Positions 7,569 to 61,907 of a stretch of DNA of 64,000 nt are shown here, piece after piece (position 1 is the first letter of the stretch; every line of letters starts with the position of its first letter). Under the pieces are notes generated by a model. The model saw only the letters and a list, made by a program, of their open reading frames with translations, searched no databases and was not told where the DNA came from. The position numbers and the translations under genes were made by a program. Origin of the DNA: an uncultured Pelagibacteraceae bacterium (GTDB lineage Bacteria; Pseudomonadota; Alphaproteobacteria; Pelagibacterales; Pelagibacteraceae); the NCBI GenBank assembly GCA_902586485.1, contig CACIHO010000006.1, positions 1 to 64,000 on the forward strand. Reading direction: 5' to 3'.

Positions 7569-7778
7569 TTAATTATTTACAGATGCTGAGCTTTCACTAG
7601 CTTGTTTCTTAGCTATTTTTTTTGCTCTTTTTTCAGCAGCTTTTTTTTCTAAACTTGCAATTTTTATATTAATTTTAGATAATTTTTTTTCTTTTAAACT
7701 TATCTTATTTTTAAGTTTATCTATTGATTTGATAAATTTCTTTTTTCTTTTTTCATTTTTCTTGAGTTTTTTACTCAT
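7569..7778 (-). CDS. small lysine-rich protein of unknown function
   Basis: I do not recognise a family. The 69-aa product contains 24 lysines and 2 arginines, begins MSKKLKKNEKRKKKF, and has a heptad-like central helix (INIKIASLEKKAAEKRAKK) followed by a small Ser/Ala/Asn tail. It has no signal peptide or membrane segment. The composition suggests a helical, strongly basic protein that could bind nucleic acid, ribosomes or polyphosphate; this is inference. The start is well supported by a strong GGGGG Shine-Dalgarno 6 bases before the ATG, which is unusual in this AT-rich window, and the gene has its own hairpin downstream. It lies alone between the transporter and the phosphorus block. Confidence 0.6.
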   Translation of the reverse strand: MSKKLKKNEKRKKKFIKSIDKLKNKISLKEKKLSKINIKIASLEKKAAEKRAKKIAKKQASESSASVNN

Positions 7779-7868: not shown

Positions 7869-8753
7869 TTATAGTAAAAAATTTACTTTTTTATCTGAAA
7901 ATTCAATATCAATCTGCTTATGACATCCAAAATTGTCCCCATCAATCTGAACGGGAATTTCAAAATTATTACCATCAATATGAATATTTTTTGAGTAAGT
8001 AGTGATAACAGATTTGTTTTTCGATAAATCTCCATAAATAATAATTAAAATTATATAATATATTAGTTTTAATCTTGTTAAATCTTTGAACACGTAAGTT
8101 ACCAATCTATCATCAAAAATATCTGACTTATTTATCTTATGATGACCAGCATAATACCTTGTATTAGATGACAATATCCAATCAGCCTGATGTTTTTGAC
8201 CGTCAAAGAAAACATTAAGTTTATTATTATTCATAAATAAAAAATGTTGTAATCCTTTTAAACCAAAAATTATCTTTCCTAGTATTTTTTTTATACGCGT
8301 ATCAATAGAGTGAACAATTTTAGCATCCCAACCAATACCAGCCATTAAAAAAAAATAATTTTCATTTATTTTTATAAGATTAGATTGTTTATAATTATTT
8401 GATGTTAAAACACTGCAAACATCATTTACTTTTTTGGTTATAGATAACTCTGCTTGAAGTAAATTGGCAGTCCCAGCCGGTATATACCCAATTGCAAAAT
8501 TTTCATTAAAATCAAAGTCATTTTTGATTAATTCATTGATAGCAAATGATACTGATCCATCACCACCAGCAACTATCAATCTATCATAATTTTTATTTTT
8601 AAATTCAAGAAATATTTTTTTTGCCTCTTCTTCAGATTTAGTTTTGAAAAAATCAACAGTATTATTGATCTTTAATTTTTCATAAATTTTATTTACTAAT
8701 TTTACTTTTTTCCCTGATGATGAATTGAGATTATATATTAAACAATAATGCAT
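7869..8753 (-). CDS. diacylglycerol kinase-family lipid kinase
   Basis: DAGK-catalytic-domain protein that phosphorylates a lipid such as diacylglycerol, using ATP. Diagnostic motifs are LIYNLNSSSGKK at the N terminus, VAGGDGSVSFAINEL (the nucleotide-binding GGDGS loop) and the following GYIPAGTANLLQAEL. The C-terminal half holds the usual beta-sandwich and ends IPVQIDGDNFG. I chose the ATG at 8753 because MHYCLIYN matches the usual family start; an in-frame ATG at 8780 would add nine residues. It diverges from plcP and agt. PlcP releases diacylglycerol, so this kinase may return it to phosphatidate or balance the pool used by the glycosyltransferase. The true lipid substrate is not shown by sequence. 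Confidence 0.85.
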   Translation of the reverse strand: MHYCLIYNLNSSSGKKVKLVNKIYEKLKINNTVDFFKTKSEEEAKKIFLEFKNKNYDRLIVAGGDGSVSFAINELIKNDFDFNENFAIGYIPAGTANLLQAELSITKKVNDVCSVLTSNNYKQSNLIKINENYFFLMAGIGWDAKIVHSIDTRIKKILGKIIFGLKGLQHFLFMNNNKLNVFFDGQKHQADWILSSNTRYYAGHHKINKSDIFDDRLVTYVFKDLTRLKLIYYIILIIIYGDLSKNKSVITTYSKNIHIDGNNFEIPVQIDGDNFGCHKQIDIEFSDKKVNFLL

Positions 8754-8820
8754 AATTTTTTCGTAATTAAATTTTAACATATCCTTAACATTTTAATGAA
8801 ATAAGAAATAGATGATTCGA

Positions 8821-18577: not shown

Positions 18578-19083
18578 AGGTCTTTAGGTCTCATAAATTC
18601 CTTAATTAAACCACTTCCATCTAATTTATTCCATTCATTAAAATCAAAATAAATTTTTGCAAAAGCTGATGTTGGAAATTTATAGTTTAATAACTTAAAA
18701 TGATTGTTGTTATGATTTTTTGTCAGTGATCGTACTAGATTTCTAACAGCAGGCTCGTGGTTAATTAAAAGCACAGATTTAAATTTTTTAGGTGTTTTTT
18801 TTATTATATCTATAATTTTATCTTCACTTGATAGGTATAATTTTTTTGAAGAAATAATTTTTTTTGGTTTTTCTATTTTTTTTAATAAAATTTTTAACGT
18901 TTTCTTTGTTCTTTTTGATGATGAAAGTAATATGTAATCAAACTTATATTTTTTTTTAACAAAAAATTCACAAATCTTTTTTGCATTTTTCTTGCCACGC
19001 TTACTTAAAGGTCTTTCATGATCCTCAAGATTTGGATGGTCCCAGCTAGATTTTGCATGACGCATAACGTATAATTTGAGCAT
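18559..19083 (-). CDS. sixA: SixA-type phosphohistidine phosphatase
   Basis: Histidine-phosphatase-superfamily protein starting MLKLYVMRHAKSSWDHP, with catalytic RHAKSSW, then HERPLSKRGKKNA, LSSSKRTKKT and a second catalytic histidine in LLINHEPAVRNL. This is the SixA subgroup, which removes phosphate from histidine phosphotransfer proteins or small molecules. I start it at ATG 19083, giving 174 aa, because the upstream in-frame extension has no family resemblance and would run into ppk. It sits tail to tail with phoB and head to head with ppk (13-base gap). Whether it acts on PhoR/PhoB or polyphosphate is unknown. Confidence 0.85.
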   Translation of the reverse strand: MLKLYVMRHAKSSWDHPNLEDHERPLSKRGKKNAKKICEFFVKKKYKFDYILLSSSKRTKKTLKILLKKIEKPKKIISSKKLYLSSEDKIIDIIKKTPKKFKSVLLINHEPAVRNLVRSLTKNHNNNHFKLLNYKFPTSAFAKIYFDFNEWNKLDGSGLIKEFMRPKDLQDSNE

Positions 19084-19096
19084 AAAGTTTAAATAT

Positions 19097-21247
19097 ATGA
19101 CTGCATTAAAAAAACAAGATAAAGAAATACTTAGATCTAAATACATAAATAGAGAATTGTCTTGGCTCAAATTCAACGACAGAGTTCTTCTAGAAGCCCA
19201 AAATATTGAAAACCCACTTTATGAAAGAATTAAATTTTTATCTATAGCTGGATCAAATTTAGATGAATTCTTTATGGTACGTGTCGCGGGTTTATATAGT
19301 CAAATCAAGCAAGAGGTAGATTCTCTTAGCTCTGATGGTCTTACTCCTGATGAACAAATGAGTGAAGTTATTTTGGAAACAAATAATCTTCTTAATAAAC
19401 AAAATAAAATATATAGAGATTTAATTCTTCAATTAAAAAAAGCAAATATAAGTATAGTTAAACCTGAAAATTTAAGTAAATCGGATCAAAAAAGATTATT
19501 TAAAATTTTTAATGAAGAAATTTACCCTCTGCTAACACCATCGGCAATAGACCCAGCTCATCCCTTTCCATTTATTGCAAATCAAGGAAGAGCATTAGTT
19601 ATGAGATTAAATAAGAAAAATAAAAAAAGAGTTTTAAATGCAATAATAGTAATTCCAAAAGCTTTATCAAGATTTATTGAAATAGATGGAAATAAAAGTT
19701 TTAAAAAATTTTTAATTATTGATGATGTTATAAGTTTTTTTGCTTCTGAAATATTTCCTGATCATGATTTAGATAAAAAAATGTTATTTAGAGTTATAAG
19801 AGATAGTGATGTAGAAATTCAAGAGGAGGCCGAAGATTTAGTAAGATCTTTTGAATTGGCTTTAAAAAGAAGAAGAACAGGTGACATCGTACGTTTAGAA
19901 ATTTTAAAAAATAGTAATAATGACTTAATTAAGTTTATAACCAATAAGTTAAACGTAAAATCTGAATACATCTATGAAATTGAAGGCATTGTTGGAATTC
20001 AAGATATCGACCAAGTTTGTAAAATTAAAAATTCTAAATTAAGATTTAAAAATTTTAATCCCAGAGAGGTTGAGAGATTAAAGGAATTTAATAATAATTT
20101 TTTTGATACTATAAAAAAAAAGGATTTAATAGTTCATCACCCTTTTGAAACATTTGATGCTGTCGTTGAGTTTTTAAATCAAGCTGCATATGATAAAAAA
20201 GTTATAGCAATTAAACAAACTCTATACAGAACAACGTTAGACTCTCCAATTGTTAAAGCCTTAATAACAGCAGCTGAAAATGGAAAGACAGTAACCGCTT
20301 TAATAGAGATCAAAGCAAGATTTGATGAAGAAGCAAACATTCAACTTTCAAGAAGTTTAGAAAAGGCAGGAATTCAAATAGTTTATGGTTTTGCAAAATA
20401 TAAAACACATGCAAAATCATCTTTAATATTAAGAAAAGAGCAGGGAAAAATTCAAACTTATATACATCTGGGAACTGGTAATTATCACCCAGTTAATGCA
20501 AAAATTTATACTGACTTATCTTTATTTAGCTCTGATAAAAAAATAGCAACTGATGTAGAAAAATTTTTTAATTATGTAACTGGTTATTCAAAACCACGAA
20601 ATCTTAGTAAAATATCTATATCACCAATTAATCTTAGGGAAACTTTGAACAAATGTATTGCTAACGAGATAGCAAATGTCAAAAAAGGTAAAAAAGGTGA
20701 AATATGGGCCAAAATGAATTCCTTAGTAGATCCAGTGATAATTGATAAATTTTACGAAGCTTCAAATGCTGGAGTAAAGATATTATTATTTGTAAGAGGT
20801 GTTTGTTGTTTAAGACCTGGAGTTAAAGATAAATCTGAAAATATAATAGTTAAAAGCATGATTGGAAGATTTTTGGAACACTCAAGAATTTATTGTTTTT
20901 CAAATGGAAAAACAATGCCTAGTAGAGATGCAAAAGTTTTTATTTCATCAGCAGATTTAATGCCAAGAAATTTAAATCGAAGAGTTGAACTTCTAGTTCC
21001 AATTGAAAACCAAACAGTCCATGAACAAGTTCTTGATCAAATTATGTTAGCTAATTATTTAGATAAAAAACAAAGTTGGGAACTCGATGCTAGTGGAAAT
21101 TATAAAAAAATAAAATATAGTGAAAATGATTCTTTTTCAGCCCATGATTATTTTATGAATAATCCTAGTTTATCTGGAAGAGGTAAAGCTAAATTAAAAA
21201 TGAAACCGAAAAAATTAAACTTAAGATTAATTAAAAGTGGAAATTAA
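19097..21247 (+). CDS. ppk: polyphosphate kinase 1
   Basis: Makes inorganic polyphosphate reversibly from ATP. Begins KYINRELSWLKFNDRVL, the usual PPK1 N-domain. Catalytic parts include IKQTLYRT, the autophosphorylated histidine region YKTHAKSSLILR, HLGTGNYHP, and the second histidine region GRFLEHSRIYCF, followed by SSADLMPRNLNRRVE. I prefer ATG 19097 (716 aa) to the TTG at 19076, which would overlap sixA. It is followed with overlap by ppx, so synthesis and breakdown of polyphosphate are encoded together beside the Pho regulator. Confidence 0.95.
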   Translation: MTALKKQDKEILRSKYINRELSWLKFNDRVLLEAQNIENPLYERIKFLSIAGSNLDEFFMVRVAGLYSQIKQEVDSLSSDGLTPDEQMSEVILETNNLLNKQNKIYRDLILQLKKANISIVKPENLSKSDQKRLFKIFNEEIYPLLTPSAIDPAHPFPFIANQGRALVMRLNKKNKKRVLNAIIVIPKALSRFIEIDGNKSFKKFLIIDDVISFFASEIFPDHDLDKKMLFRVIRDSDVEIQEEAEDLVRSFELALKRRRTGDIVRLEILKNSNNDLIKFITNKLNVKSEYIYEIEGIVGIQDIDQVCKIKNSKLRFKNFNPREVERLKEFNNNFFDTIKKKDLIVHHPFETFDAVVEFLNQAAYDKKVIAIKQTLYRTTLDSPIVKALITAAENGKTVTALIEIKARFDEEANIQLSRSLEKAGIQIVYGFAKYKTHAKSSLILRKEQGKIQTYIHLGTGNYHPVNAKIYTDLSLFSSDKKIATDVEKFFNYVTGYSKPRNLSKISISPINLRETLNKCIANEIANVKKGKKGEIWAKMNSLVDPVIIDKFYEASNAGVKILLFVRGVCCLRPGVKDKSENIIVKSMIGRFLEHSRIYCFSNGKTMPSRDAKVFISSADLMPRNLNRRVELLVPIENQTVHEQVLDQIMLANYLDKKQSWELDASGNYKKIKYSENDSFSAHDYFMNNPSLSGRGKAKLKMKPKKLNLRLIKSGN

Positions 21248-22748
21248 AGTTTTTAAAAATAAACAAAATTTAAAATTAAAACCTGCTAAATTAGCAGTTA
21301 TTGATATAGGATCTAATTCTATTAGGATGCTAATTTATGAAGATTTTAGCTCTTCTCGTGTGCCATTTTTCAATGAAAAAGCTGTTTGTGAACTTGGTAA
21401 AAATTTAGATAAATCAAGAAAACTTCATAAGTCTGGTGTTGATTATGCTCAAAAAGTATTGAAGAGATTTTCAGAGATTTTAAATGTTTCTAAAATTGTT
21501 AATTTAAAAATAATAGCAACTGCTGTTTTAAGAGAAGCAACTGATGCAAAACCATTTGTTGAATATGTAGAAAATCTTTTTAAGAAAAAAATAGAAATCT
21601 TAAGTGGTGAGGAAGAAGCAATTTGTTCAGCAGAAGGTGTTAAAATTGGATTTGATAATGTAGATGGGTTAGTTGCTGATCTTGGTGGAGGTAGTTTAGA
21701 ACTAGCTCGAGTTGAAAATGGTTTGATCACTAATAAAACATCTTTACCCTTAGGTGTTTTAAGATTAATAAATAATCCAATTGTAAAAAAGAGAAACCTT
21801 TCCAAATATATAAAAAAACTTTTCAAAGACGAGAAATGGTTATCTAAAAAAAAATTTGAAAACCTATATTTAGTTGGTGGAACATGGAGAGCTTTATTTA
21901 AACTTCATTTGTTTCAAAATAAACACCCTGTCCACATAATTCATCAGTATTCGGTAAATTATGAAACTATATCATCATTTTTAGAAAAAATTGCATCTTT
22001 CAATAAAGCAAAACTAAAAACAGTTGAATATATATCTAAATCTAGAACACCTTATCTACCATACAGCGCTATAATATTAGATGAGATCATGAATGTAACA
22101 AATCCAAAAAACATAATATGTTCTATAAGCGGAATTAGAGAGGGATCTCTAGCAAAAGATTACCTTAAAAATATTGATAACTCTCAAGTTTTTGAGAAAT
22201 CATTAGAATATATTTCTAAGAAAAGAGGTGATTTGGGATTAACTTACAAAAAATATCATGAATTTATCAAACCTGTATTTGAGGGTAATGAACATTTTAA
22301 TGAAAAATTACTTAATTTGGCTTGTGTTTTAAGTCATATGGATTGGGGACTTGGTGCTTTTCAAAAGGCAGAATTAGTTTTTCAAGAAACATTAAATACC
22401 CCTTTATTGAGACTTTCACATAAAGAAAGAATTCAAATAGCTCTTTCATGTTATTGGAGGTACTGCAGCATTAAATACAACCCTAAAATAGAATATTTGA
22501 CATTTTTAAATAATAATGAAATTTTTTCTAGTAAACAAGTTGGTGCAGCCTTAAGATTTGCTCACTCACTTACATCTATTTCAACTATCTTCTTAGAGGA
22601 ATTTAAATTGTATAAAAGAGGTAACTCTGTATTTTTAAAAATTCCAGCACAACATCAAGAAATAATTTCTAAACAAGTTACAAAAAGATTTAAAGCTCTT
22701 GCACGAGAATTATTTTTAGAACCAAGAGTATTATATTCAAATAGTTAA
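21237..22748 (+). CDS. ppx: exopolyphosphatase (Ppx/GppA family)
   Basis: Releases phosphate from polyphosphate ends; relatives also hydrolyse pppGpp. The actin-like ATPase fold is shown by VIDIGSNSIRMLIYE at the N terminus, ATAVLREATDA, the phosphate loop LVADLGGGSLELA and the VGGTWRAL segment, with a C-terminal HD-like helical domain. The start is GTG 21237 inside the ppk 3' end; no ATG lies between it and the first motif. 503 aa. The last gene of the phosphorus block before the gap at 22749. Confidence 0.9.
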   Translation: MEIKVFKNKQNLKLKPAKLAVIDIGSNSIRMLIYEDFSSSRVPFFNEKAVCELGKNLDKSRKLHKSGVDYAQKVLKRFSEILNVSKIVNLKIIATAVLREATDAKPFVEYVENLFKKKIEILSGEEEAICSAEGVKIGFDNVDGLVADLGGGSLELARVENGLITNKTSLPLGVLRLINNPIVKKRNLSKYIKKLFKDEKWLSKKKFENLYLVGGTWRALFKLHLFQNKHPVHIIHQYSVNYETISSFLEKIASFNKAKLKTVEYISKSRTPYLPYSAIILDEIMNVTNPKNIICSISGIREGSLAKDYLKNIDNSQVFEKSLEYISKKRGDLGLTYKKYHEFIKPVFEGNEHFNEKLLNLACVLSHMDWGLGAFQKAELVFQETLNTPLLRLSHKERIQIALSCYWRYCSIKYNPKIEYLTFLNNNEIFSSKQVGAALRFAHSLTSISTIFLEEFKLYKRGNSVFLKIPAQHQEIISKQVTKRFKALARELFLEPRVLYSNS

Positions 22749-22942: not shown

Positions 22943-23602
22943 TTAATTTTTTTTTAAGAATAATTTTTTTGCAATAAAAACAGCAATTAACATACCAATT
23001 AATTCAGCAACTATATAAAAAGGAGTGTTTAAATAACTTATACCAGTAAAAGACTCTGTGAATGTTCTTGCTATTGCTACAGCAGGATTTGCAAAGGATG
23101 TTGATGAAGTAAACCAATAACCAGCTGTAATATATAACCCAACAGATGCAGCTACGGTAATTTTACCTGACTTCATGGATCCAAAAATAATGATTATTAG
23201 TCCTAAAGTAGCAATAATTTCTGATACAAAAATGTAGATACCATCTCTTGATTTTGTCGATAATTCAAAAATCTGATGTTCAAAAAAGAAATTAGCTAAA
23301 GCCACACCTAACAAACATCCTAGGATCTGAGCTGAAATATAAAAGGGTAGAAGACGTTTTTTTAACTTTCCTGTAATTGTCATAGCAATACTTACAAATG
23401 GATTGAAATGAGCCCCAGACACATCAGCAAAAACAGTTATTAGCACAAACAATCCAGCTCCAGTTGCTATAGTATTTGCAATTAGCATTACCGCTGTATC
23501 ATTGGTAAGATTTTCTGCCATTAAACCTGACCCAACTATGATCATTACTAGAAAGCAACTTCCAATAAATTCTGAAAGAAAATATTTATTTTTATTTTTC
23601 AT
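22943..23602 (-). CDS. aqpS: aquaporin/glyceroporin-family channel, probably arsenite exit
   Basis: MIP-family channel, 219 aa, six membrane helices in two halves. The two pore motifs are SGAHFNPFVS (NPA changed to NPF) and SFANPAVAIAR. It overlaps the upstream arsC by 11 bases. The AqpS-ArsC pair is known from the Sinorhizobium meliloti ars operon, where arsenite made by ArsC leaves the cell through the channel. That role is inferred here from adjacency; a glycerol or water channel remains possible, the more so with a glpD gene 0.8 kb away. Confidence 0.78.
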   Translation of the reverse strand: MKNKNKYFLSEFIGSCFLVMIIVGSGLMAENLTNDTAVMLIANTIATGAGLFVLITVFADVSGAHFNPFVSIAMTITGKLKKRLLPFYISAQILGCLLGVALANFFFEHQIFELSTKSRDGIYIFVSEIIATLGLIIIIFGSMKSGKITVAASVGLYITAGYWFTSSTSFANPAVAIARTFTESFTGISYLNTPFYIVAELIGMLIAVFIAKKLFLKKN

Positions 23603-24023
23603 CTAGCCAATCTTTAATTTTATTGCTTATAATATTAAAAGTGTTTCTAATGATTATTTGCTTTTCTTCGTTATTTGCAGTTTGAAGTTTAGCCACTGGA
23701 TCGTCTATATTCCAGTGTATAATTTGGTTTTTATCAGGCCAAATAGGACATACCTCATTATTTGCGTTATTACATACTGTTATTACATGATCCATTTTTA
23801 TTTCATTATTTATAAACTCTTCAAAGTTTTTAGAACTATAATTAGTTAGATCATAATTTTTATTTTTCTCTAAAAAACTTCTAACATCAATATTAATTGT
23901 TCCAGATGGATTACTACCAGCACTAAAAGCTTTAAATTTATTTGAGTATTCATTATTGATAATACTCTCAGCTATAATGCTTCTTGCTGAATTTCCTGTG
24001 CATACAAATAAAATATTTTTCAT
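23592..24023 (-). CDS. arsC: arsenate reductase, thioredoxin-type (LMW phosphatase fold)
   Basis: Reduces arsenate to arsenite. The N-terminal phosphate-binding loop is FVCTGNSARSIIAES, which is CX5R with Cys10-like nucleophile placement. The cysteine pair of the arsenate-reductase subgroup is in TVCNNANNEVCPIWP, and the general acid lies in HWNIDDPVA. Those extra cysteines separate it from ordinary tyrosine phosphatases. 143 aa. Start and stop are coupled to the 74-aa gene before it (shared base at 24023) and the channel gene behind it. Near the Pst genes this makes sense, because Pst-type uptake also admits arsenate. Confidence 0.88.
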   Translation of the reverse strand: MKNILFVCTGNSARSIIAESIINNEYSNKFKAFSAGSNPSGTINIDVRSFLEKNKNYDLTNYSSKNFEEFINNEIKMDHVITVCNNANNEVCPIWPDKNQIIHWNIDDPVAKLQTANNEEKQIIIRNTFNIISNKIKDWLDEK

Positions 24024-24247
24024 TAAAAAATAATTTTATAAATTCCGATTACAAATAATGGAATTTGTAATCCAAAGTTAGTTAAAATGGCCTTATCCTT
24101 TAATAAGAAACCTGAAATTGTCCATCCAACAACACCAAGCCCATGAAAATAAATATTCAGCGGGTAAATATTAAGATTTGTAAGTAAAATACCTGTTAAC
24201 ACTAAAAGTGTACTGATCCACTTAAGATATTTTTTTAAAAATGACAT
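24023..24247 (-). CDS. small membrane protein of unknown function
   Basis: 74 aa, with three hydrophobic stretches (WISTLLVLTGILLTNL, GLGVVGWTISGFLL, FGLQIPLFVIGIY). I do not assign a named family. It leads the arsC-aqpS operon by shared stop/start. Its first codons (MSFLKK) lie in the left direct repeat, and the same six codons reappear, orphaned, at 32282-32299 on the other side of the glycerol-phosphate module. This shows that the gene once directly followed phyH. Confidence 0.7.
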   Translation of the reverse strand: MSFLKKYLKWISTLLVLTGILLTNLNIYPLNIYFHGLGVVGWTISGFLLKDKAILTNFGLQIPLFVIGIYKIIF

Positions 24248-24360
24248 TCAAAATTTATATGAATGTTTTGTTAAAGATTTATTACAATAAACTTTAATGT
24301 GATTTAATTTTATTGAAGTTCAAAGATAGAAACATAATGTTTCATTTTAGGGAATGGAAA
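24231..24360. repeat. left direct repeat of the G3P island
   Basis: Aligns without gaps to 32283-32412. By hand count 112 of 130 bases match, with a perfect 41-base run at 24271-24311. It contains the 5' end of the 74-aa gene, the intergenic spacer and the last 16 codons plus stop of a phyH relative. The outer end, past 24231, diverges at once. Confidence 0.85.
24310..24360 (-). pseudogene. orphan 3' end of a phyH-like gene
   Basis: Read on the minus strand it gives FPFPKMKHYVSIFELQ and a TAA stop, matching PLPKRKHYVSIYELQKN at the end of the intact dioxygenase at 32356. It directly follows, and is in frame with, the TGA that ends glpD. It has no start of its own and is a remnant left at the island border. 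Confidence 0.8.
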
Positions 24361-25512
24361 TCAAAAAAGCTTCTTTTTGTGTGTCCATGGACCTTTTTTT
24401 GTCTTAGGTAAAAACCCTTTTAGATCAACAAGAACTTTTTCGGACAATTTTCTGTAGGTGGTAAGTTTTCCTCCATAGATATTCAATAAAGGCAATTTTT
24501 TAATAATTTTTAGATCAAAAACATAATCCCTTGTAACTTTTGAAGCTGAATTAAAGTCTTCAATTAAAGGTCGTATTCCTGAATAAGTATCTACGATGTC
24601 CTTTGTTCTGATTTGTTTTTTTAAGTAATTGTTTACTGAATTAATTAAATAGCTAATTTCTTTTTTAGATATCCCTTTATTTTCTGGTGATTTCACTTCC
24701 ACTTCAGTTGTTCCAATTAAAGAAAACTTCCCTTTATAAGGTAACACAAATATTATTCTTTTATCTGTATTTTGAAATGTGAATGCAACGTTTTCTTTGT
24801 ACAATTTTTTTGTAATGATATGACTTCCTTTAACCAGTCTTATTTTTTTCTTAGATTTTATTTTTATATTTTTATTTAAAGTTTCATTTATCCATGGTCC
24901 AGATGCATTGATTAAAACTTTTGATTTTATTTTTTTTCCATTTTGAAGACTAATGACCCACTCATTATTAATAATTTCAGCTTTTTTAACTTTGTTATAT
25001 TCTAGTATTTTAGCGTTGTTTCTTTTTGCATCTTGAGCGTTTAACTTTGTTAATTTTTTATCATCAATTTGAATGTCAAAATATTGAAAACCAGTTTTAT
25101 ATTTTTCTTTAAGAATATTTGAATATTTTTTTGTAAGATCAAATTTTTTTGATTTTGGTATATTGCTTTTGCCACCTAAATTGTCGTACAAAAACAAACC
25201 AAATTTAATTAACCAGGCTGGTCGAATTTTATCTGCATAAGGAATTATAAAAGGAATCGGTTTGGAAATATGTTTAGCAATTTTATAAACAATTTCTCTT
25301 TCTTTGAGAGATTCTCTAACTAATTTGAATTCATAATTTTCTAAATAACGAAGACCACCATGTACTAATTTCGTCGACCAAGATGAGGTTGCTCCTCCAA
25401 TCTCACCTTTGTCAGCTAAACAAACTGATAAACCTCTACCTGCAGCATCCCTCGCAATACCTGCGCCGTTTATACCGCCACCTATTATGAATAAATCAAA
25501 AATTTTAGACAT
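24361..25512 (-). CDS. glpD: glycerol-3-phosphate dehydrogenase, C-terminally truncated
   Basis: FAD enzyme that oxidises glycerol-3-phosphate to dihydroxyacetone phosphate at the inner membrane, passing electrons to quinone. N-terminal FAD fold FIIGGGINGAGIARDAAGRGL, then GGATSSWSTKLVHGGLRYLE, the DAO core and YSGIRPL, ending IYGGKLTTYRKLSEKVLVDL-type sequence and PWTHKKKLF. At 383 aa it stops where family members of about 500 aa continue into the C-terminal helical domain (DAO_C). The stop coincides with the island border, so the domain was probably lost by the rearrangement. Activity of the remaining core is uncertain. It diverges from ugpB. Confidence 0.85.
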   Translation of the reverse strand: MSKIFDLFIIGGGINGAGIARDAAGRGLSVCLADKGEIGGATSSWSTKLVHGGLRYLENYEFKLVRESLKEREIVYKIAKHISKPIPFIIPYADKIRPAWLIKFGLFLYDNLGGKSNIPKSKKFDLTKKYSNILKEKYKTGFQYFDIQIDDKKLTKLNAQDAKRNNAKILEYNKVKKAEIINNEWVISLQNGKKIKSKVLINASGPWINETLNKNIKIKSKKKIRLVKGSHIITKKLYKENVAFTFQNTDKRIIFVLPYKGKFSLIGTTEVEVKSPENKGISKKEISYLINSVNNYLKKQIRTKDIVDTYSGIRPLIEDFNSASKVTRDYVFDLKIIKKLPLLNIYGGKLTTYRKLSEKVLVDLKGFLPKTKKGPWTHKKKLF

Positions 25513-25569
25513 TTAAATCATGATTTTTTAAAAATATACAACCTCTTTTAGAAATTTAAAATTTTTAAA

Positions 25570-25589
25570 TGAAATTATTTACAATTTCA
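25570..25589. promoter_or_regulatory. candidate operator in the glpD/ugpB gap
   Basis: TGAAATT and AATTTCA form a perfect 7-bp inverted repeat around a 6-base spacer, between the two divergent genes. The symmetry suits a dimeric repressor. No regulator gene lies nearby, and A/T-rich palindromes arise by chance in this composition. No Pho-box-like repeat was found in this gap. Confidence 0.3.
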
Positions 25590-25656
25590 TAATATCTTAA
25601 CATTAATTAATTATTAATAAAAAATAAAATAAACTAAACTTAACAGAAGGATAGAT

Positions 25657-26964
25657 ATGAAAAAAATACTTAGTGTTTTAACAATTCTATTTACTTTCTC
25701 TTTTACATCACACAGTTATTCAAAAACAGAAATTCATTGGTGGTACGGAAACAGTGGTTTTCTTGGTGATGTAATTATTGAAATTGCAAATAGATTTAAC
25801 GCTTCACAAGATCAATATACGGTCATTCCTACAGGAAAAGGAAGTTATGAAGATAACATGGCGGCAACTATTGCTGCATTTAGAGCAGGAGACCAACCAC
25901 ACTATTCACAGGTTTATGATGCTGGTGCTGCAATAATGGTAGCGCAAGTAAAAAATGGTGTTGTCATCGGTTTTGAAGAAATGGCAGAGAAATATGGCAT
26001 TGATGTAGATGCTGACAATTATATTCCAGGCATTAAAAATTTCTATGCAGACTCTGATGGAAAAATGATTGGTGTGCCTTTCAATAGCTCAACTTGTTTG
26101 ATGTATGCAAACATGGACATATTGAAAAAAGTAGGAATTGAGTCAGTTCCAAAAACTTATGAAGAGTTTGAGGCTATAGCTCCAAAAATTAAAGCTGCCG
26201 GATACATACCTTTAGTTCAAAGTCACTTTCCTTGGATATGGACAGAAAATTTCTTTTCAAGACATAATCTACTTATGACTGATGGAAACAATGGTTACGA
26301 TGCTGTTCCAACAAAAACTTTATTTGCTGAAACAGATGCATTTGTAATGCATTGGAAAAAAGTCAAGGAATGGTATGAAAAAGGCTTTTATGGATATAAA
26401 GGAAGAGCGTGGGGAGATAACCAAGCTCCATTTATAGCTGGTGAAGCTGCATTTTGGTTTGGTTCAGCTGCTTCGTTCGGTGGAATGAAAGGTGTTGTAC
26501 CTAACTTTACAGTAAACCATATTCCTTACTGGGATTCTGTAACTGGTGGTAAAGAGTATCCAACGTTTATCGGTGGTGCTGCTAACTGGATCTTAAATGG
26601 TCATACTGAGGAAGAGTACAAAGGACTTGCTAAATTTATAGAATTTATGGGTTCTCCAGAGATGGATCTGTATTATCACAATATGACTGGTTACTCTGCA
26701 GTAACTAAAGGTGGAATAGAGTTAGCTGAAACTATAAATTTCTATAGAGCTTCTCCATATCATAAAGCAGTTGGTGAACAATTAAGCTTAGAAGGTTCGA
26801 CTATTCCTGGTGGATATAGAGCTGGTAATTGGCCACAAATTCGTGAAGTAATTTACGAAAATGTTGAGCCAATGTTAAACGGCAAAATATCAATCGAAAA
26901 AGGATTGCAGAACATGGATAAAGGTGCAGCTAAATTGTTAAAACAATTCGCTAAAACTTTATAA
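25657..26964 (+). CDS. ugpB: sn-glycerol-3-phosphate ABC transporter binding protein
   Basis: Periplasmic binding protein for glycerol-3-phosphate and glycerophosphodiesters. Signal peptide at residues 1-22 (KKILSVLTILFTFSFTSHSYS), mature start KTEIHWWYGNSG. Family-1 extracellular binding fold with UgpB-like segments FNASQDQYTV, GKGSYEDNMAATIAAFRAG, FNSSTCLMYAN and the C-terminal PGGYRAGNWPQIREVI. 435 aa, usual length. AGAAGGA gives a good ribosome site before the ATG. A strong terminator separates it from ugpA. Substrate choice is inferred from the ugpQ and glpD neighbours. Confidence 0.92.
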   Translation: MKKILSVLTILFTFSFTSHSYSKTEIHWWYGNSGFLGDVIIEIANRFNASQDQYTVIPTGKGSYEDNMAATIAAFRAGDQPHYSQVYDAGAAIMVAQVKNGVVIGFEEMAEKYGIDVDADNYIPGIKNFYADSDGKMIGVPFNSSTCLMYANMDILKKVGIESVPKTYEEFEAIAPKIKAAGYIPLVQSHFPWIWTENFFSRHNLLMTDGNNGYDAVPTKTLFAETDAFVMHWKKVKEWYEKGFYGYKGRAWGDNQAPFIAGEAAFWFGSAASFGGMKGVVPNFTVNHIPYWDSVTGGKEYPTFIGGAANWILNGHTEEEYKGLAKFIEFMGSPEMDLYYHNMTGYSAVTKGGIELAETINFYRASPYHKAVGEQLSLEGSTIPGGYRAGNWPQIREVIYENVEPMLNGKISIEKGLQNMDKGAAKLLKQFAKTL

Positions 26965-26978
26965 TTAATAATTTAAAT

Positions 26979-27013
26979 AAGGAGGGTGTTGATTTACCCT
27001 CCTTATTTTTTAT
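26979..27013 (+). terminator. Rho-independent terminator between ugpB and ugpA
   Basis: AAGGAGGGT (26979-26987) pairs perfectly with ACCCTCCTT (26996-27004) around an 8-base loop, followed by ATTTTTTATTTT. The next gene starts at 27023 with no room for a separate promoter, so partial read-through must feed ugpA and the genes behind it. Confidence 0.9.
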
Positions 27014-27022
27014 TTTACTTAT

Positions 27023-27901
27023 ATGAAAAAAGTCCAATTTAAATCTAGCTATTCACAATATTTATTCTTAGCACCACAGTTAGGAATTTTATTAATTTTT
27101 TTATATTGGCCAATCATACAAACCTTCAGAGATGCATTTACAATGCAAGATGCTTTTGGATTTGGAGCGACGTTTGTATGGTTTGATAATTTTTTATTTA
27201 TTTTTGATGATCCAGCTTATTTTATAGCTTTCAAATTTACTATTATTTATAGTTTTGCAATTACATTAATTACCGGCTCAATCGGTTTGCTGCTTGCCGT
27301 TCAGGCCAATAATGTAATACATGGTAAAAGCACTTACAAAACACTTTTAATTTGGCCTTATGCAATTGCGCCTGCGGTTGTAGGTGTAATGGCAAATTAT
27401 TTTTTTAGTGAAAGATTTGGGCTCCTTTATCATTTATTTCACGAACTTTGGGGTTTCAATTGGTACGAGAGTGTTTTTGACTCGTATATTTATGTAATAA
27501 TAGCTGGTTCTTGGAAGCAAATCAGTGCTAATTTTATTTTCTTCTTGGCAGGTCTTCAAGCTATACAAAAATCTGTAATTGAAGCATCAATGATTGATTG
27601 TAAAAATAGTTTTAGAAGATTTTGGACAATTACATTCCCATTATTAATGCCAACTACATTCTTCTTAATAATTATTAATATAACCTATGCTTTCTTTGAT
27701 ACATTTGGAATTATTGATACTACAACGATAGGTGCTCCTTCAGGTGAAACAAGAACTCTAGTTTATAAAGCCTACATGGATGGATTTAGAGGATTAGATT
27801 TAGGAAGTGCTGGAGCTCAATCAATAATGATGATGTTGATTGTATTAGTAATTACAATTTTTCAATTTAGATATATCGAAGGGAAAATACATTATAATTA
27901 A
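27023..27901 (+). CDS. ugpA: glycerol-3-phosphate ABC transporter permease UgpA
   Basis: Six-helix inner-membrane permease, 292 aa. Starts KKVQFKSSYSQYLFLAPQLGILLIFLYWP, the LAPxxGILxxF form of sugar/G3P permeases. It has the cytoplasmic coupling loop EASMIDCKNSFRRFWTITFPLL (EAA motif) and ends with QFRYIEGKIHYN. The stop overlaps the first ugpE start. Partner of the two UgpE copies in forming the channel. Confidence 0.92.
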   Translation: MKKVQFKSSYSQYLFLAPQLGILLIFLYWPIIQTFRDAFTMQDAFGFGATFVWFDNFLFIFDDPAYFIAFKFTIIYSFAITLITGSIGLLLAVQANNVIHGKSTYKTLLIWPYAIAPAVVGVMANYFFSERFGLLYHLFHELWGFNWYESVFDSYIYVIIAGSWKQISANFIFFLAGLQAIQKSVIEASMIDCKNSFRRFWTITFPLLMPTTFFLIIINITYAFFDTFGIIDTTTIGAPSGETRTLVYKAYMDGFRGLDLGSAGAQSIMMMLIVLVITIFQFRYIEGKIHYN

Positions 27902-28722
27902 TGACTAGATTTATCACATCAAGTTTTTCACATTTAATTTTAATCATTGGAATACTTATCATGGTACTTCCTGTGTGGATGATTTTTGCTAGCTCAACGC
28001 ACACAAGTTCAATGATTAATATGAATGGTCTCCAAATGTTTTTAGGAGATAGCTTTTATGAAAATTACTTACGGGTTTTATTATATCAGGGTGGTTTCTT
28101 TAAAGAGATAACAGCATTAAAAATGTTTTTTAATAGTTTTTTAATGGCTACGGGAGTTGCAATTCTATCCGTTGTCACATCTTTAATGGCTGCCTACGCA
28201 TTGGTTTATTATAGAATAAAACATGCAACATTATTGTTTTGGATAATTTTTATCACGATATTAGTACCACTAGAGTTAAGAATTTTTCCTACTTATTCAG
28301 TAATGGCTGAACTTAATTTAGTAAATTCTTACTTTGGATTAATAGTTCCAATTTCAGCATCAGCTATAGCAACATTATTCTTTCGACAATTTTATAAAAC
28401 TGTTCCAGATGAATTACTTGAGTCTGCAAAACTTGATGGGGCAAATACCTGGAGATTTTTTGTTGATTTTTTAATTCCTTTGTCAAAAACGATGATTGTA
28501 GCGATGTTAATATTTATGTTTGTTTTTGGTTACAATCAGTACTTATGGCCGCTATTGGTAACAACTTCAGAACAATATTGGACAGTGGTTATGGGATTAA
28601 AAATGATGTCGGGTTCTATTGTTCATCGTTTTGCTTTTGTGATGATGTCTATGGTTCCACCAATTTTAATTATAATTGTGTTGCAGAAACATTTTATTAA
28701 GGGGGTTTTTCAAGATAAATGA
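27901..28722 (+). CDS. ugpE: glycerol-3-phosphate ABC transporter permease UgpE, copy 1
   Basis: Second permease type of the importer, 273 aa, six helices. The coupling loop reads DELLESAKLDGANTWRFFVDFLIPLS. It is roughly 60% identical by eye to the gene directly behind it, most strongly over the coupling loop and helices 3-5, so the two arose by tandem duplication. Both are intact. Its periplasmic loop near the C terminus is shorter than that of copy 2. Confidence 0.88.
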   Translation: MTRFITSSFSHLILIIGILIMVLPVWMIFASSTHTSSMINMNGLQMFLGDSFYENYLRVLLYQGGFFKEITALKMFFNSFLMATGVAILSVVTSLMAAYALVYYRIKHATLLFWIIFITILVPLELRIFPTYSVMAELNLVNSYFGLIVPISASAIATLFFRQFYKTVPDELLESAKLDGANTWRFFVDFLIPLSKTMIVAMLIFMFVFGYNQYLWPLLVTTSEQYWTVVMGLKMMSGSIVHRFAFVMMSMVPPILIIIVLQKHFIKGVFQDK

Positions 28723-29570
28723 AAATTAAACCACTTCAAATAATTGCTCATATTATTTTAATATTAGGGGTATTGTTAATGGTAGTTCCTATTTGGATAT
28801 CTTTTGCAAGTTCTTCACATGACTCTGTAACTATACTGACGGAAGGTATGAAGTTTCATATAGGTGATCAGCTAGCAAGAAACTATAACGAAGTTTTAAA
28901 TGAAAAAGGTGGTTGGTCAGAAGAAGTGACTGCTGCAAAAATGTTTATTAATAGTTTTATAATGGCATTAGGGATTGCAACACTTAAAGTAGTTATTTCT
29001 GCAATGTCAGCATATGCTTTGGTTTATTATAGATTTAAATTAGCTGTACCAATTTTTTGGTTAATCTTTATTACTCTACTTGTTCCTTTGGAGGTAAGAA
29101 TTTTTCCAAGCTATAAAATTGTATCTGATTTAGGTTTAACAAATTCATACACAGGCCTTATTCTTCCATTAGTTGCTTCAGCTACAGCAACTTTTTTCTT
29201 CAGACAATTTTACAAAACAATTCCAGATGAACTTTTGGAGTCGGCAAAATTAGATGGAGCAAATGCTTGGAGTTTTTTCATAGATTTCTTGGTACCACTA
29301 TCAAAAACTATGATAGCAGCAATGTTTATCTTTATGTTCGTATATGGATATAGCCAATATTTATGGCCGCTAATAATGACAACTGCAGAAGAATATTGGA
29401 CTGTTGTAATGGGAATGAAAATTATTTACACAGAAAGCTATGAAGGAGTTGCTTTGCCAAGAACAGCAGAAAGATTTGCATATATAATTTTATCAATGAT
29501 CCCACCAGTTTTAGTGGTAGTATTTTTACAAAAATGGTTCATAAAAGGATTAATTCAAACGGAGAAATAA
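28719..29570 (+). CDS. ugpE: glycerol-3-phosphate ABC transporter permease UgpE, copy 2
   Basis: 283-aa paralogue of the preceding gene, overlapping its end by four bases (ATGA). Coupling loop DELLESAKLDGANAWSFFIDFLVPLS. It carries an extra segment YTESYEGVALPRTAERF, which resembles normal UgpE more closely than copy 1 does, so this is probably the standard subunit. The two copies could pair alternately with UgpA or with each other; sequence does not say. Confidence 0.88.
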   Translation: MKIKPLQIIAHIILILGVLLMVVPIWISFASSSHDSVTILTEGMKFHIGDQLARNYNEVLNEKGGWSEEVTAAKMFINSFIMALGIATLKVVISAMSAYALVYYRFKLAVPIFWLIFITLLVPLEVRIFPSYKIVSDLGLTNSYTGLILPLVASATATFFFRQFYKTIPDELLESAKLDGANAWSFFIDFLVPLSKTMIAAMFIFMFVYGYSQYLWPLIMTTAEEYWTVVMGMKIIYTESYEGVALPRTAERFAYIILSMIPPVLVVVFLQKWFIKGLIQTEK

Positions 29571-30623
29571 ATGAGTTTTTTAGATTTAAAAAATGTGACT
29601 AAGATTTATCCAAACGGAACTAAGGCTGTTCACGAAACTTCATTAAGTGTAGATGAAGGAGAGTTTATGGTTTTTGTAGGACCAAGTGGATGTGGAAAAT
29701 CAACTTTATTAAGAATGGTTGCAGGTTTAGAGGACATTACAGAGGGTGATATTAATCTTGATGGAAAATTAATTAATGAAGTTGATCCATCTGAGAGAGA
29801 TGTAGCAATGGTGTTTCAGAACTATGCATTATACCCACATATGAATGTGTATAATAATTTGGCTTATGGTTTAAAAAACAGAGGAATTGATAAAGAAACA
29901 ATTGAGCAAAAAGTAAATGATGCAGCTAAACTGTTACAAATTTCAGATTATTTACAGAGAAAACCTTCAATGTTATCTGGAGGTCAAAGACAAAGGGTTG
30001 CTATGGGAAGAGCAATTGTAAGAAATCCAAAAATATTCTTATTTGATGAACCTCTTTCAAACTTAGATGCAAAATTAAGAATTCAGATGAGACTTGAAAT
30101 TAAAAAACTTCAACAAAAGGTTGGAGTAACAAGTATATTTGTTACACATGATCAAGTTGAGGCCATGACACTTGCTGACAGATTGGCAGTAATTAATAAT
30201 GGAATTATTGAACAGCTTGGAACTCCTATTGAGATATATGATAATCCAAAATCTTTATTTGTTGCTGGTTTTATTGGTTCACCTCAAATGAATTTTTTAA
30301 ATGGTAATTTAAAAAATAAAACATTATCTGCAGAAGGTTTTGAAATTAAAGATGTTAATACTGACTTTGAGGGTGAGGTTACATTAGGAATAAGACCTGA
30401 GCATTTAGTACAATCTGAGAGTGGTTTAATTAATTTAACAGTAGACTTAGTGGAACAGCTTGGTTCGGATAATATTGTTTATGGTCAATTGAAAAATAAA
30501 AAAGACTTTTGTTATAGGTGTCCAGGAAATCAAACTGTTGAAAAAGGTTCTAATTTAAGAGTAAATATGGAGAACAATAAATATTATATTTTTGATAAAA
30601 GTACTGGCAAAAGAGTTAATTAA
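29571..30623 (+). CDS. ugpC: glycerol-3-phosphate ABC transporter ATP-binding protein
   Basis: ATPase of the UgpBAE importer, 350 aa. Walker [11 protein letters not shown]-loop MVFQNYALYPHMNVYNNL, signature LSGGQRQRV, Walker B FLFDEPLSNLDAKLR, switch histidine in FVTHDQVEAMTLADR. A C-terminal TOBE-type domain (from about residue 240, with LGIRPEHLV) is typical of the MalK/UgpC branch. It starts directly at the stop of the second ugpE. Confidence 0.94.
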   Translation: MSFLDLKNVTKIYPNGTKAVHETSLSVDEGEFMVFVGPSGCGKSTLLRMVAGLEDITEGDINLDGKLINEVDPSERDVAMVFQNYALYPHMNVYNNLAYGLKNRGIDKETIEQKVNDAAKLLQISDYLQRKPSMLSGGQRQRVAMGRAIVRNPKIFLFDEPLSNLDAKLRIQMRLEIKKLQQKVGVTSIFVTHDQVEAMTLADRLAVINNGIIEQLGTPIEIYDNPKSLFVAGFIGSPQMNFLNGNLKNKTLSAEGFEIKDVNTDFEGEVTLGIRPEHLVQSESGLINLTVDLVEQLGSDNIVYGQLKNKKDFCYRCPGNQTVEKGSNLRVNMENNKYYIFDKSTGKRVN

Positions 30624-30625
30624 AT

Positions 30626-31546
30626 TTGATTTTAAGTAAACCAAATCATATAAAAATTTATGGTCATCGAGGAGCTAGAGGTGATCTTCCTGAAAATACT
30701 TTAGAGAGTTTCAAATATTTATTTGATAATAATTTTAGTGGATTAGAAGTAGATATTTTATTTTCTAAAGATTCGGTGCCAGTAATTACCCATGATTTTT
30801 TCTTAGACAGAGATCAGACTAAAGACTTAGATGGTAATTGGATAGAAGATGAATATATGAAAATTAATAGTAAAACTTATAAAGAATTATTAAATTATGA
30901 TATAGGAGCTGTTAATAAATTATCTAGTTATGGCAGAAGATTTTTAAATCAAAAAAGTTTAGAAAACCAGAGAATACCAAATTTAAACAAATTATTTAAA
31001 TTATTAAAATCTTATGAAACTGAAGATTTAATAATTAATTTAGAATTTAAGTCTAGTCCATTAATTAGCAATCTAGTTCCTGAACCTATTGAGATTGTAA
31101 AACTTGTAAAGCAAGAAATAGAAGTCTCTAATTTAAGCGATCGAATTTTAGTTTCTTCCTTTGATTGGAGAGTTTTAAAAGAATTTAAATTACAATTACC
31201 AAAAATTTCTAGAGGTTATTTATCAACACAACAAGAATTAAAAAAAACAAGGAAAAATATTTATGAAAATTCACCTTGGATGGGGTTTATTCCATTTTTT
31301 AATAACAGTGAAATTCCAGAAGTTATAAATAATTTAGGTGGAATTGCTTGGCATCCTTTTTACAAAGATATAAAAAAAAAAAATATTGAAGAAGCACACA
31401 ATCATGGACTAGTGGTAAATACTTGGACTGTAAATAGAGAAAGCGACATGATGCGGATGATTGAATATGGTGTAGATGGAATATTTACAGATTATCCTCT
31501 AAGGCTGAAAGAACTTTGTGAAAAAGAAAATAAAAAATGGTTTTAG
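30626..31546 (+). CDS. ugpQ: cytoplasmic glycerophosphodiester phosphodiesterase
   Basis: Hydrolyses glycerophosphodiesters to glycerol-3-phosphate and an alcohol. GDPD TIM-barrel motifs: IYGHRGARGDLPENTLESF (catalytic HRG), GLEVDILFSKDSVPVITHDFFLDR (metal Glu/Asp and HD), LIINLEFK, and the C-terminal NTWTVNRESDM and GVDGIFTDYP. No signal peptide, so the diester must be imported first by UgpBAEC. The start is TTG 30626, two bases after ugpC; no ATG lies before the catalytic motif. 306 aa. Confidence 0.9.
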   Translation: MILSKPNHIKIYGHRGARGDLPENTLESFKYLFDNNFSGLEVDILFSKDSVPVITHDFFLDRDQTKDLDGNWIEDEYMKINSKTYKELLNYDIGAVNKLSSYGRRFLNQKSLENQRIPNLNKLFKLLKSYETEDLIINLEFKSSPLISNLVPEPIEIVKLVKQEIEVSNLSDRILVSSFDWRVLKEFKLQLPKISRGYLSTQQELKKTRKNIYENSPWMGFIPFFNNSEIPEVINNLGGIAWHPFYKDIKKKNIEEAHNHGLVVNTWTVNRESDMMRMIEYGVDGIFTDYPLRLKELCEKENKKWF

Positions 31547-31555
31547 TATATTTTA

Positions 31556-32266
31556 ATGGATTTAAACATAGTTAATAATGAGGAAAAGTTTTTAGCAGGT
31601 AAACTTGAAGGTTACACTTTAAAAGGTGCTGAAAATAAATTTGACAACAAAGGAAACCCTATATCATTTCCAGGCTGCACAATAATTTGCAATATTCCTA
31701 TTAATACCGATTTATCTAATCAAATTATTAGTTTCCAAAAAAAAATAGAAAATTTTAATCCTAAAAAAACTTATTTCTATTTACCTCCATCTAGTTTTCA
31801 TATGACATTATTTGATTGTTGTAATTTAAATACAAAAAACACCAATTATTGGCCATCCGATATAGATCCTGATATGGATTATAAAGATATAGCTGTTGAA
31901 TTAAATAAAAAAATTGAAAATTATAATTTTCCAAAACAATTTAATCTTAAACTAAAAACTTTTTTTGGTGGTTATAGTATTATTTTAGTACCCTTTTCTG
32001 AAAAGGATGAAAAAATTCTAAGAAATTGTAGAGATGAACTTAGTAGCTTGTTAAAAATTAAATTTGAAAATCATCAAAGATATACTTTCCATATTACTTT
32101 AGCTTATATTTTGAGACAACTTAATGAGACTGAAATAAAAAACTTAATTGAATTTAATAAACAACTATCCTCTGACTTTAATAAAAAATTTCCAAAAATT
32201 ACTTTCAAAAAACCTGAAATGTATACTTTTAAAGATATGCTGGAGTTTAAAAGTATTAATTCTTAA
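31556..32266 (+). CDS. 2H-phosphoesterase-like protein
   Basis: 236 aa, probably cytoplasmic. Two HxT motifs, SFHMTLFDCC (near residue 82) and YTFHITLAYI (near residue 181), are the mark of the 2H phosphoesterase superfamily (cyclic phosphodiesterases, RNA ligase/LigT relatives). The wider pattern resembles the DUF1868 group, but that is from memory. It lies 9 bases behind ugpQ and is the last gene of the island, so a role in hydrolysing a cyclic glycerophosphate or other phosphodiester product is a reasonable inference. Confidence 0.68.
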   Translation: MDLNIVNNEEKFLAGKLEGYTLKGAENKFDNKGNPISFPGCTIICNIPINTDLSNQIISFQKKIENFNPKKTYFYLPPSSFHMTLFDCCNLNTKNTNYWPSDIDPDMDYKDIAVELNKKIENYNFPKQFNLKLKTFFGGYSIILVPFSEKDEKILRNCRDELSSLLKIKFENHQRYTFHITLAYILRQLNETEIKNLIEFNKQLSSDFNKKFPKITFKKPEMYTFKDMLEFKSINS

Positions 32267-32282
32267 AGCCTGTAATAGTTTT

Positions 32283-32412
32283 TTTTTTAGAAATGACATT
32301 TGATTTTTATATAAATGTAATTTTAAAGATTTATTACAATAAACTTTAATGTGATTTAATTTTTTTGAAGTTCATAGATAGAAACGTAATGTTTCCTCTT
32401 AGGCAGTGGGAT
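32283..32412. repeat. right direct repeat of the G3P island
   Basis: Partner of 24231-24360. Here the phyH end is part of the intact gene, whereas the 74-aa gene is reduced to its first codons: ATG at 32299 on the minus strand gives MSFLKK and then unrelated sequence that runs into the 2H-phosphoesterase gene. This complementary damage defines the island borders. Confidence 0.85.

Positions 32413-61831: not shown

Positions 61832-61907
<76 letters not shown>

Follow-up and report, generated by a model that had tools for sequence, protein, structure and literature searches.

The window analysed here, a 64-kb stretch of the SAR11 genome G000 (79% complete; among named genomes it is most closely related to Pelagibacteraceae single cells), contains a module of eight genes that lies between phyH and a 74-residue DUF6552 gene and is bounded by two direct repeats, each of which duplicates the phyH–DUF6552 junction. 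The module comprises glpD, ugpB, ugpA, two ugpE-type permease genes, ugpC, ugpQ and a 2H-phosphodiesterase gene, matching the Pfam families DAO, SBP_bac_8, BPD_transp_1 (three proteins, of which one falls slightly below the curated cut-off), ABC_tran, GDPD and 2H-phosphodiest. To judge from this gene content, the module may serve phosphorus scavenging from glycerol phosphates. Its left-hand neighbours belong to the Pfam families PP_kinase (ppk), Ppx-GppA (ppx), MIP (aqp) and LMWPc (arsC). Comparison with related genomes shows that a single insertion haplotype of this module has spread recently across distinct SAR11 lineages. The features of the locus are as follows (window coordinates in nucleotides, nt).

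21237–22748, plus strand: ppx (Ppx-GppA), close to where the shared low-diversity block ends on the left
22943–23602, minus strand: aqp (MIP family, Pfam), downstream of arsC
23592–24023, minus strand: the gene named arsC in the preliminary description (Pfam LMWPc family)
24023–24247, minus strand: DUF6552 gene (Pfam PF20189), 74 residues, intact, parted from phyH by the insertion
24225–24357, no strand: left direct repeat (DUF6552 start and upstream region plus phyH 3′ tail)
24271–24311, no strand: identical 41-nt run, overlapping a PhoB-box-like sequence upstream of DUF6552
24310–24357, minus strand: phyH tail remnant, with a stop two codons early
24350–24363, no strand: left-hand junction of the insertion, adjoining the glpD stop codon; about 15–20 nt resemble a native glpD 3′ flank
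24361–25512, minus strand: glpD-type flavin adenine dinucleotide oxidoreductase (DAO, Pfam)
25657–26964, plus strand: ugpB-type solute-binding protein (Pfam)
27023–27901, plus strand: ugpA-type permease (just under the Pfam cut-off)
27901–28722, plus strand: first ugpE-type permease (Pfam)
28719–29570, plus strand: second ugpE-type permease (Pfam), 66% identical to the first over 300 nt
29571–30623, plus strand: ugpC-type ATPase (Pfam)
30626–31546, plus strand: ugpQ-type glycerophosphodiester phosphodiesterase (Pfam)
31556–32266, plus strand: 2H-phosphodiesterase (DUF1868, Pfam)
32276–32292, no strand: right-hand junction of the insertion, located in a T run whose length varies among carriers
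32277–32409, no strand: right direct repeat (phyH 3′ tail plus dead DUF6552 start)
32285–32299, minus strand: remnant of the first DUF6552 codons
32356–33237, minus strand: phyH (Pfam), intact; the identity of carriers to one another falls here

The preliminary description of the window, made from its sequence alone, had reported two repeats of about 130 bases with a perfect run of 41 bases. By measurement the repeats are 86% identical over 133 nt at a spacing of 8,052 nt, and the perfect 41-nt run is present in both (24271–24311 and 32323–32363). In a whole-genome search a query spanning the first repeat recovers the second at an E value of 4.1e-40, and the pair is therefore not a product of chance. 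The left copy contains the ATG and upstream region of the DUF6552 gene followed by an in-frame phyH tail, which stops two codons early and abuts the stop codon of glpD. The right copy consists of the end of the intact phyH together with the ATG and approximately five codons of DUF6552. The two copies are thus damaged in complementary fashion, as had been proposed. Two matches were returned by each of two repeat searches of G000, which makes a dispersed intergenic element in this genome unlikely, although the searches scored 2 of 63 and 33 of 42 candidates and weaker copies are possible. An assembly artefact was also rejected, as the same architecture was assembled in several other single-cell genomes.

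The history of the junction is illustrated by 399 congeneric genomes, which are incomplete and represent one genome per species, and in each of which the two best candidates were scored. In at least 23 of them phyH is directly followed by DUF6552, the empty site that the preliminary description had proposed to look for. Seventeen of these are close relatives at the junction, where they are 87–95% identical to the window (G070, G092, G041, G093, G050, G082, G107, G076, G359, G211, G326, G260, G232, G223, G382, G006 and G254; contig ends cut G006 and G223, with the junction still visible), and six are more divergent (G138, G058, G178, G052, G166 and G115). The site is occupied in at least nine genomes. 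Seven of these loci are complete (G000, G088, G122, G238, G281, G344 and G313), while in G274 and G172 only the right side is present before the contig ends. A tenth carrier, AG-911-G16 (L132), lies beyond the 399. Both repeats are present in every complete carrier locus examined. The existence of both empty and occupied sites shows that the module was inserted and that phyH–DUF6552 is the older order, and the ancestral arrangement phyH–DUF6552–arsC–aqp deduced from the window is borne out by the empty sites. DUF6552 with arsC- and aqp-like genes is also found behind other upstream genes, which is a further indication that the phyH–DUF6552 junction predates the module. Gene content therefore varies at one chromosomal position, with further variation around phyH and aqp.

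The module is almost invariant among carriers. The mean pairwise difference is 0.16% for glpD, 0.15% for ugpB–ugpC, 0.18% for ugpQ and 0.26% for the phosphodiesterase gene; the corresponding values are 0.00% for the inner right repeat, 3.9–4.4% for phyH and 8.7% for uvrA. These comparisons cover eight carriers, including AG-911-G16 and omitting G274 and G172, whose contigs end inside the module, with ppk available from six carriers and uvrA from seven; they also include 15 of the 17 close empty-site genomes. Measured against the window, with matches covering less than half a gene dropped, the module is 99.3–100% identical in carriers; a lone value of 72% for G172 stems from a paralogue matched on its truncated contig. 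The identity of uvrA to the window is 89.7–93.8% in carriers and 85.7–93.9% in close empty-site genomes, and that of phyH is 95.0–97.8% and 92.1–96.3%, respectively, so that for both genes the two ranges overlap. Where found in carriers, the valS–ilvD region is 94% identical to the window. A single uvrA clade of carriers is rejected (approximately unbiased (AU) test, p-AU 1.07e-5; 21 of 26 genomes in the tree), and the tree requires 8 changes of label between carrier and empty states compared with 7.1 in shuffles. The six divergent empty-site genomes are absent from both the identity table and the trees. As the module is near-identical, uvrA is divergent and the uvrA tree does not unite the carriers, one haplotype has spread recently across distinct lineages.

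The edges of the shared block provide insight into how it travelled. Among nine carriers there are no substitutions between 32224 and 32373, the first occurring at 32374 (disregarding changes in the length of the T run). With the G000-like majority phyH type as reference, G281, G313, G088 and G172, which represent three phyH types, display non-majority alleles from 32374–32386 onwards, while G344 departs from the majority near 32563 and G238, G274 and G122 do so near 32812, with scattered single differences earlier. The view that every carrier breaks at the repeat was rejected, as the allele comparison places the end of the shared block there in only four of the nine. On the left, DUF6552, arsC and aqp usually belong to the block, as ppx often does. 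In G088 there are eight differences in DUF6552 (24044–24224), some of which match the common empty-site allele, located between a block-type arsC and the left repeat, and in G238 an empty-like stretch lies within arsC. The mosaic edges thus differ among carriers, falling in phyH, DUF6552 or arsC, and beyond phyH the carriers display four different gene orders. The single common position and the mosaic edges are best explained by spread through homologous recombination in the flanking genes.

It was also considered that the repeats themselves confer mobility, with the module excised as a circle through the repeats and re-entering by a single (Campbell) crossover at the phyH–DUF6552 junction of a new host. 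The sequence of the repeats is compatible with such a cycle. On its DUF6552 side the left copy resembles the empty sites while its phyH tail is divergent, and the right copy resembles them on its phyH side while its DUF6552 side is divergent; the middle is identical in the two copies of the window, though it is variable among empty sites. Outer halves that match empty-site alleles, inner halves found only in carriers and an identical middle are the products expected of reciprocal crossing-over within the 41-nt run. In addition, the non-majority alleles of G088 begin beside both repeats, and no second ugpB match occurs in any of the seven complete carriers. The same pattern would, however, arise if the redundant halves had simply drifted. 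Most differences between the repeats are located in these halves, each copy retaining one half that is still in use, and both drift of the unneeded halves and reciprocal crossing-over of a host with an incoming allele fit the data. Part of the difference in the left copy, moreover, resembles a native glpD 3′ flank rather than an altered phyH. The 83-nt inner right repeat is identical in nine of nine carriers, yet a donor allele for the inner half was not found outside carriers (two best candidates in each of the 399 genomes), the best match being 89% identical over the full stretch. Furthermore, the shared block continues into phyH in five of the nine carriers and mostly includes DUF6552, arsC and aqp, genes that a circle would not carry; G088, too, has block-type arsC and aqp. 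Neither a circle nor a free junction was seen among the sequences compared. Mobility as a circle is an unlikely explanation. Equally doubtful is the related proposal of a recombinase-free cassette, in which a promoter-bearing duplicated gene junction would act as a homology-based attachment site and the identical tract would be the place of a single RecA-type crossover. What can be demonstrated of the spread looks like homologous exchange through the neighbouring genes, not like mobility borne by the repeats.

How the insertion was founded is a separate question, for which template switching, single crossover of a circle, and duplication followed by loss are all candidates. Template switching during replication, or break repair, could yield such a duplication. 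Copying would have left the chromosome at the phyH tail, continued on incoming DNA through the module and returned approximately 110–130 bp upstream, which accounts for a target duplication of arbitrary length and for the lack of a recombinase. The junctions lie at short shared sequences, a T run on the right and a CCTAA-AAG-like sequence on the left, but the similarity is mostly within chance expectation, with p below 0.05 in 1 of 24 left and 1 of 8 right pairs. This route is plausible, though somewhat short of an even chance, and, as it concerns the founding event only, it is compatible with later spread by flanking recombination.

A tandem duplication followed by complementary loss would start from a genome in which the module adjoins aqp. 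Unequal crossing-over between the 3′ flank of glpD and the phyH tail would produce two copies of the region, one of which then lost DUF6552–arsC–aqp and the other the module; this route as a whole is unlikely. In other genomes the module is indeed found between aqp and ppx, oriented as required, and the motif CCACTG.CT.AGAA.A is common to the phyH tail and some aqp-side glpD 3′ flanks. This resemblance is weak, however (of 24 pairs, the best had a shuffle p of 0.016 and the next one of 0.061, most being far worse). The glpD 3′ flank of carriers is closest to loci with a solitary glpD, their ugpA–ugpC genes are nearer to those at the other locations, the ppx–aqp gap of carriers has no match to the aqp-side gap sequences, and none of the genomes was found to carry both copies.

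The possibility that the module is an enzyme-less remnant of an integrase- or transposase-driven element is very improbable. Another SAR11 locus (described below) has repeat-bounded cargo at a tRNA-like gene, so that such elements probably exist in these bacteria. Against this, the Pfam scan detected no recombinase or transposase among the eight module proteins, in agreement with the preliminary description; the sole transfer RNA (tRNA) gene in the window, at 61832, is 29 kb to the right of the module; and no viral contig encodes a relative of the module glpD, which also led us to reject viral carriage. Duplication of a 110–130-bp gene junction is not known as a usual signature of transposons. 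A repeat search of the region also listed inverted repeats.

The data are, overall, probably best accommodated by a single insertion followed, much later, by the spread of one haplotype through homologous recombination in its flanks. The glpD gene, the ugp operon, ugpQ and the 2H-phosphodiesterase gene would have entered a SAR11 lineage a single time, between phyH and DUF6552, and the shared junctions suggest that there was only one such founding event, which would have duplicated approximately 110–130 bp of the target junction without a recombinase. The redundant halves, that is the phyH tail beside glpD and the DUF6552 start beside the phosphodiesterase gene, would then have drifted while the halves in use were conserved, as the distribution of differences suggests. 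Much later, homologous recombination in flanking genes would have carried the haplotype between lineages whose uvrA genes are approximately 91% identical, with aqp–arsC–DUF6552 usually travelling along and ppx often doing so; some transfers may have involved a crossover in or beside the right-hand repeat. The proposal that the insertion could be dated from the divergence between the repeats does not survive this analysis: in each copy one half is used and one redundant, and the haplotype spread much later than the insertion.

Several observations weigh against this scheme. The test of a carrier clade for phyH is only marginal (p-AU 0.0455; 25 of 26 genomes, G223 being cut). The edges are defined relative to the commonest phyH type, which may not be the allele of the original block. 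Excision would recreate a perfect empty site, so some empty sites could be secondary. A donor for the complete module was not found, and in a search of 201 genomes ugpQ outside carriers is at most 65% identical. The counts of empty and occupied sites, drawn from incomplete genomes sampled one per species, are lower bounds. Finally, ppk is 98–100% identical in non-carriers where found, so that the module alone does not account for the scant variation at the left end of the block.

With respect to ppk itself (19076–21247), identity to the window is 97.5–100% in carriers and non-carriers where the gene was found, compared with 86–94% for uvrA. The left end may perhaps have a separate history, involving a recent sweep near ppk.

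The genes of the module occur elsewhere in other SAR11 genomes in three arrangements. They are located between aqp and ppx, or beside a glycerol-kinase-like gene (identified by eye), or are split, with the ugp genes apart from a solitary glpD or without any glpD found. The ugpB–ugpC region of carriers displays 91–100% amino acid identity to split loci and 93–97% nucleotide identity to the glycerol-kinase-side group. By contrast, ugpQ has a match at E ≤ 1e-60 in 28 of the 201 genomes, four of which are carriers, with the remainder at most 65% identical at the amino acid level, which points to an unsampled source. From these similarities the module looks like a composite from such a source. The ugpQ allele (30626–31546) was perhaps swapped in from an unsampled source, its neighbours being 91–100% identical to some non-carriers. 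At two aqp-side loci, L191 and L206, glpD lies directly behind aqp and the ugp genes are missing there, perhaps because part of the module was lost from its other site.

Potential regulatory sequences were scored against a PhoB-box consensus. A PhoB-like box upstream of DUF6552 (24250–24300) reaches 14 of 18 (p 0.006 in mononucleotide shuffles), and the best score is at least 13 in 35 of 43 distinct DUF6552 upstream regions. The right repeat also scores 13, at another place (p 0.046), as does the ppx–aqp gap (p 0.11), while the glpD–ugpB gap does not reach that score (best 11, p 0.93). PhoB control of the module is thus unsupported, as the right repeat and the ppx–aqp gap score alike and the glpD–ugpB gap scores low.

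The preliminary description had further suggested that insertions of this kind are a general route by which SAR11 gains and loses nutrient modules. The data do not support this: the same genes occur at other places, and 150 sequences compared with themselves (a redundant set of 2.86 Mb, mostly centred on this region and including the window) yielded, besides carriers, two further candidate pairs (L060 and L227) and a paralogous ATPase match (L253). Such repeat pairs look rare, although the scan recovered 9 of 14 known carrier loci, making the negative a weak one. At L227 (G360) a 100-nt direct repeat (87% identical; 4401–4500 and 7658–7756) bounds two genes, and by eye the right copy reads as an intact tRNA-Leu gene with its upstream region and the left copy as its 5′ half. 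At L060 (G199) a DsbA-like gene lies between the copies of a 78-nt direct repeat (7929–8006 and 8704–8781), which extends into the znuA tail; a 112-residue gene and DUF6552 are found downstream of it. This is possibly a second case of junction duplication, and an empty site for the L060 gene was not found among the loci compared.

Two further observations concern the neighbourhood of DUF6552. In L054 (6728–6829) and L055 (10027–10110) lone 3′ tails of phyH (residues 260–293) or of the DsbA-like gene (residues 170–197) lie beside DUF6552, as if modules upstream of this gene were often replaced, leaving a tail behind. In L228 (8717–9899; G131) phyH adjoins a relative of DUF6552 that is only 53% identical, showing that the same kinds of gene also adjoin with a distant paralogue.

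Gain and loss of genes in SAR11 are usually inferred from presence and absence. At this locus the empty site, the scar, the spread haplotype and the recombination edges are visible together, so that the founding insertion can be separated from the later spread. The data also provide a warning that dating islands by their flanking repeats is unsafe, as selection probably acts on only one half of each repeat and the block spread anew at a later time. The region from ppk–ppx to znuA represents a compact test bed for the swapping of phosphorus genes in streamlined marine bacteria.

Tycheposons and other tRNA-targeting integrative elements carry cargo bounded by direct repeats derived from their target. 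The module differs from these in having neither a recombinase nor a tRNA target, its repeat being a junction between protein-coding genes. In the parts of the literature consulted, a limited set that does not imply absence from print, no published title was found that describes a phyH–DUF6552 insertion. Homologous exchange of islands in SAR11 and HIMB59, and sweeps of operons in SAR11, are on record (see also PMC7542561 and PMC7318151). Hypervariable region 2 of SAR11 is 99.96% identical in two strains that are 97.4% identical genome-wide (PMC2217521), and for the phosphate islands of HIMB59 homologous recombination was inferred from the absence of insertion sequence or tRNA signs (PMC10734472). 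Such flexible islands resemble the module in their variable nutrient or surface genes, fixed place, near-identity in more divergent genomes and exchange ascribed to flanking homology. The present locus differs in that cargo was added to an otherwise intact junction, with a damaged junction copy kept on each side, and in that the limit of the shared block can be located closely, in some carriers at the repeat. The nitrate reductase hotspots of SAR11 contain an operon that is approximately 99–100% identical among cells with 93–94% genome identity (PMC12374537), a gene sweep similar to that described here in its near-identical operon across divergent cells; here, by contrast, the cargo is a phosphorus module, and occupied and empty sites and the founding junctions are resolved. 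A recent transfer of a phosphorus operon, phnCDEubiE, between HIMB59 and Pelagibacter has been reported among GORG-Tropics cells (PMC12416821). According to that report, phnCDEubiE in Pelagibacterales adjoins tyrosine recombinases and tRNA genes, which the glp–ugp module does not. The locus is thus a well-resolved variant of the known homologous exchange of islands.

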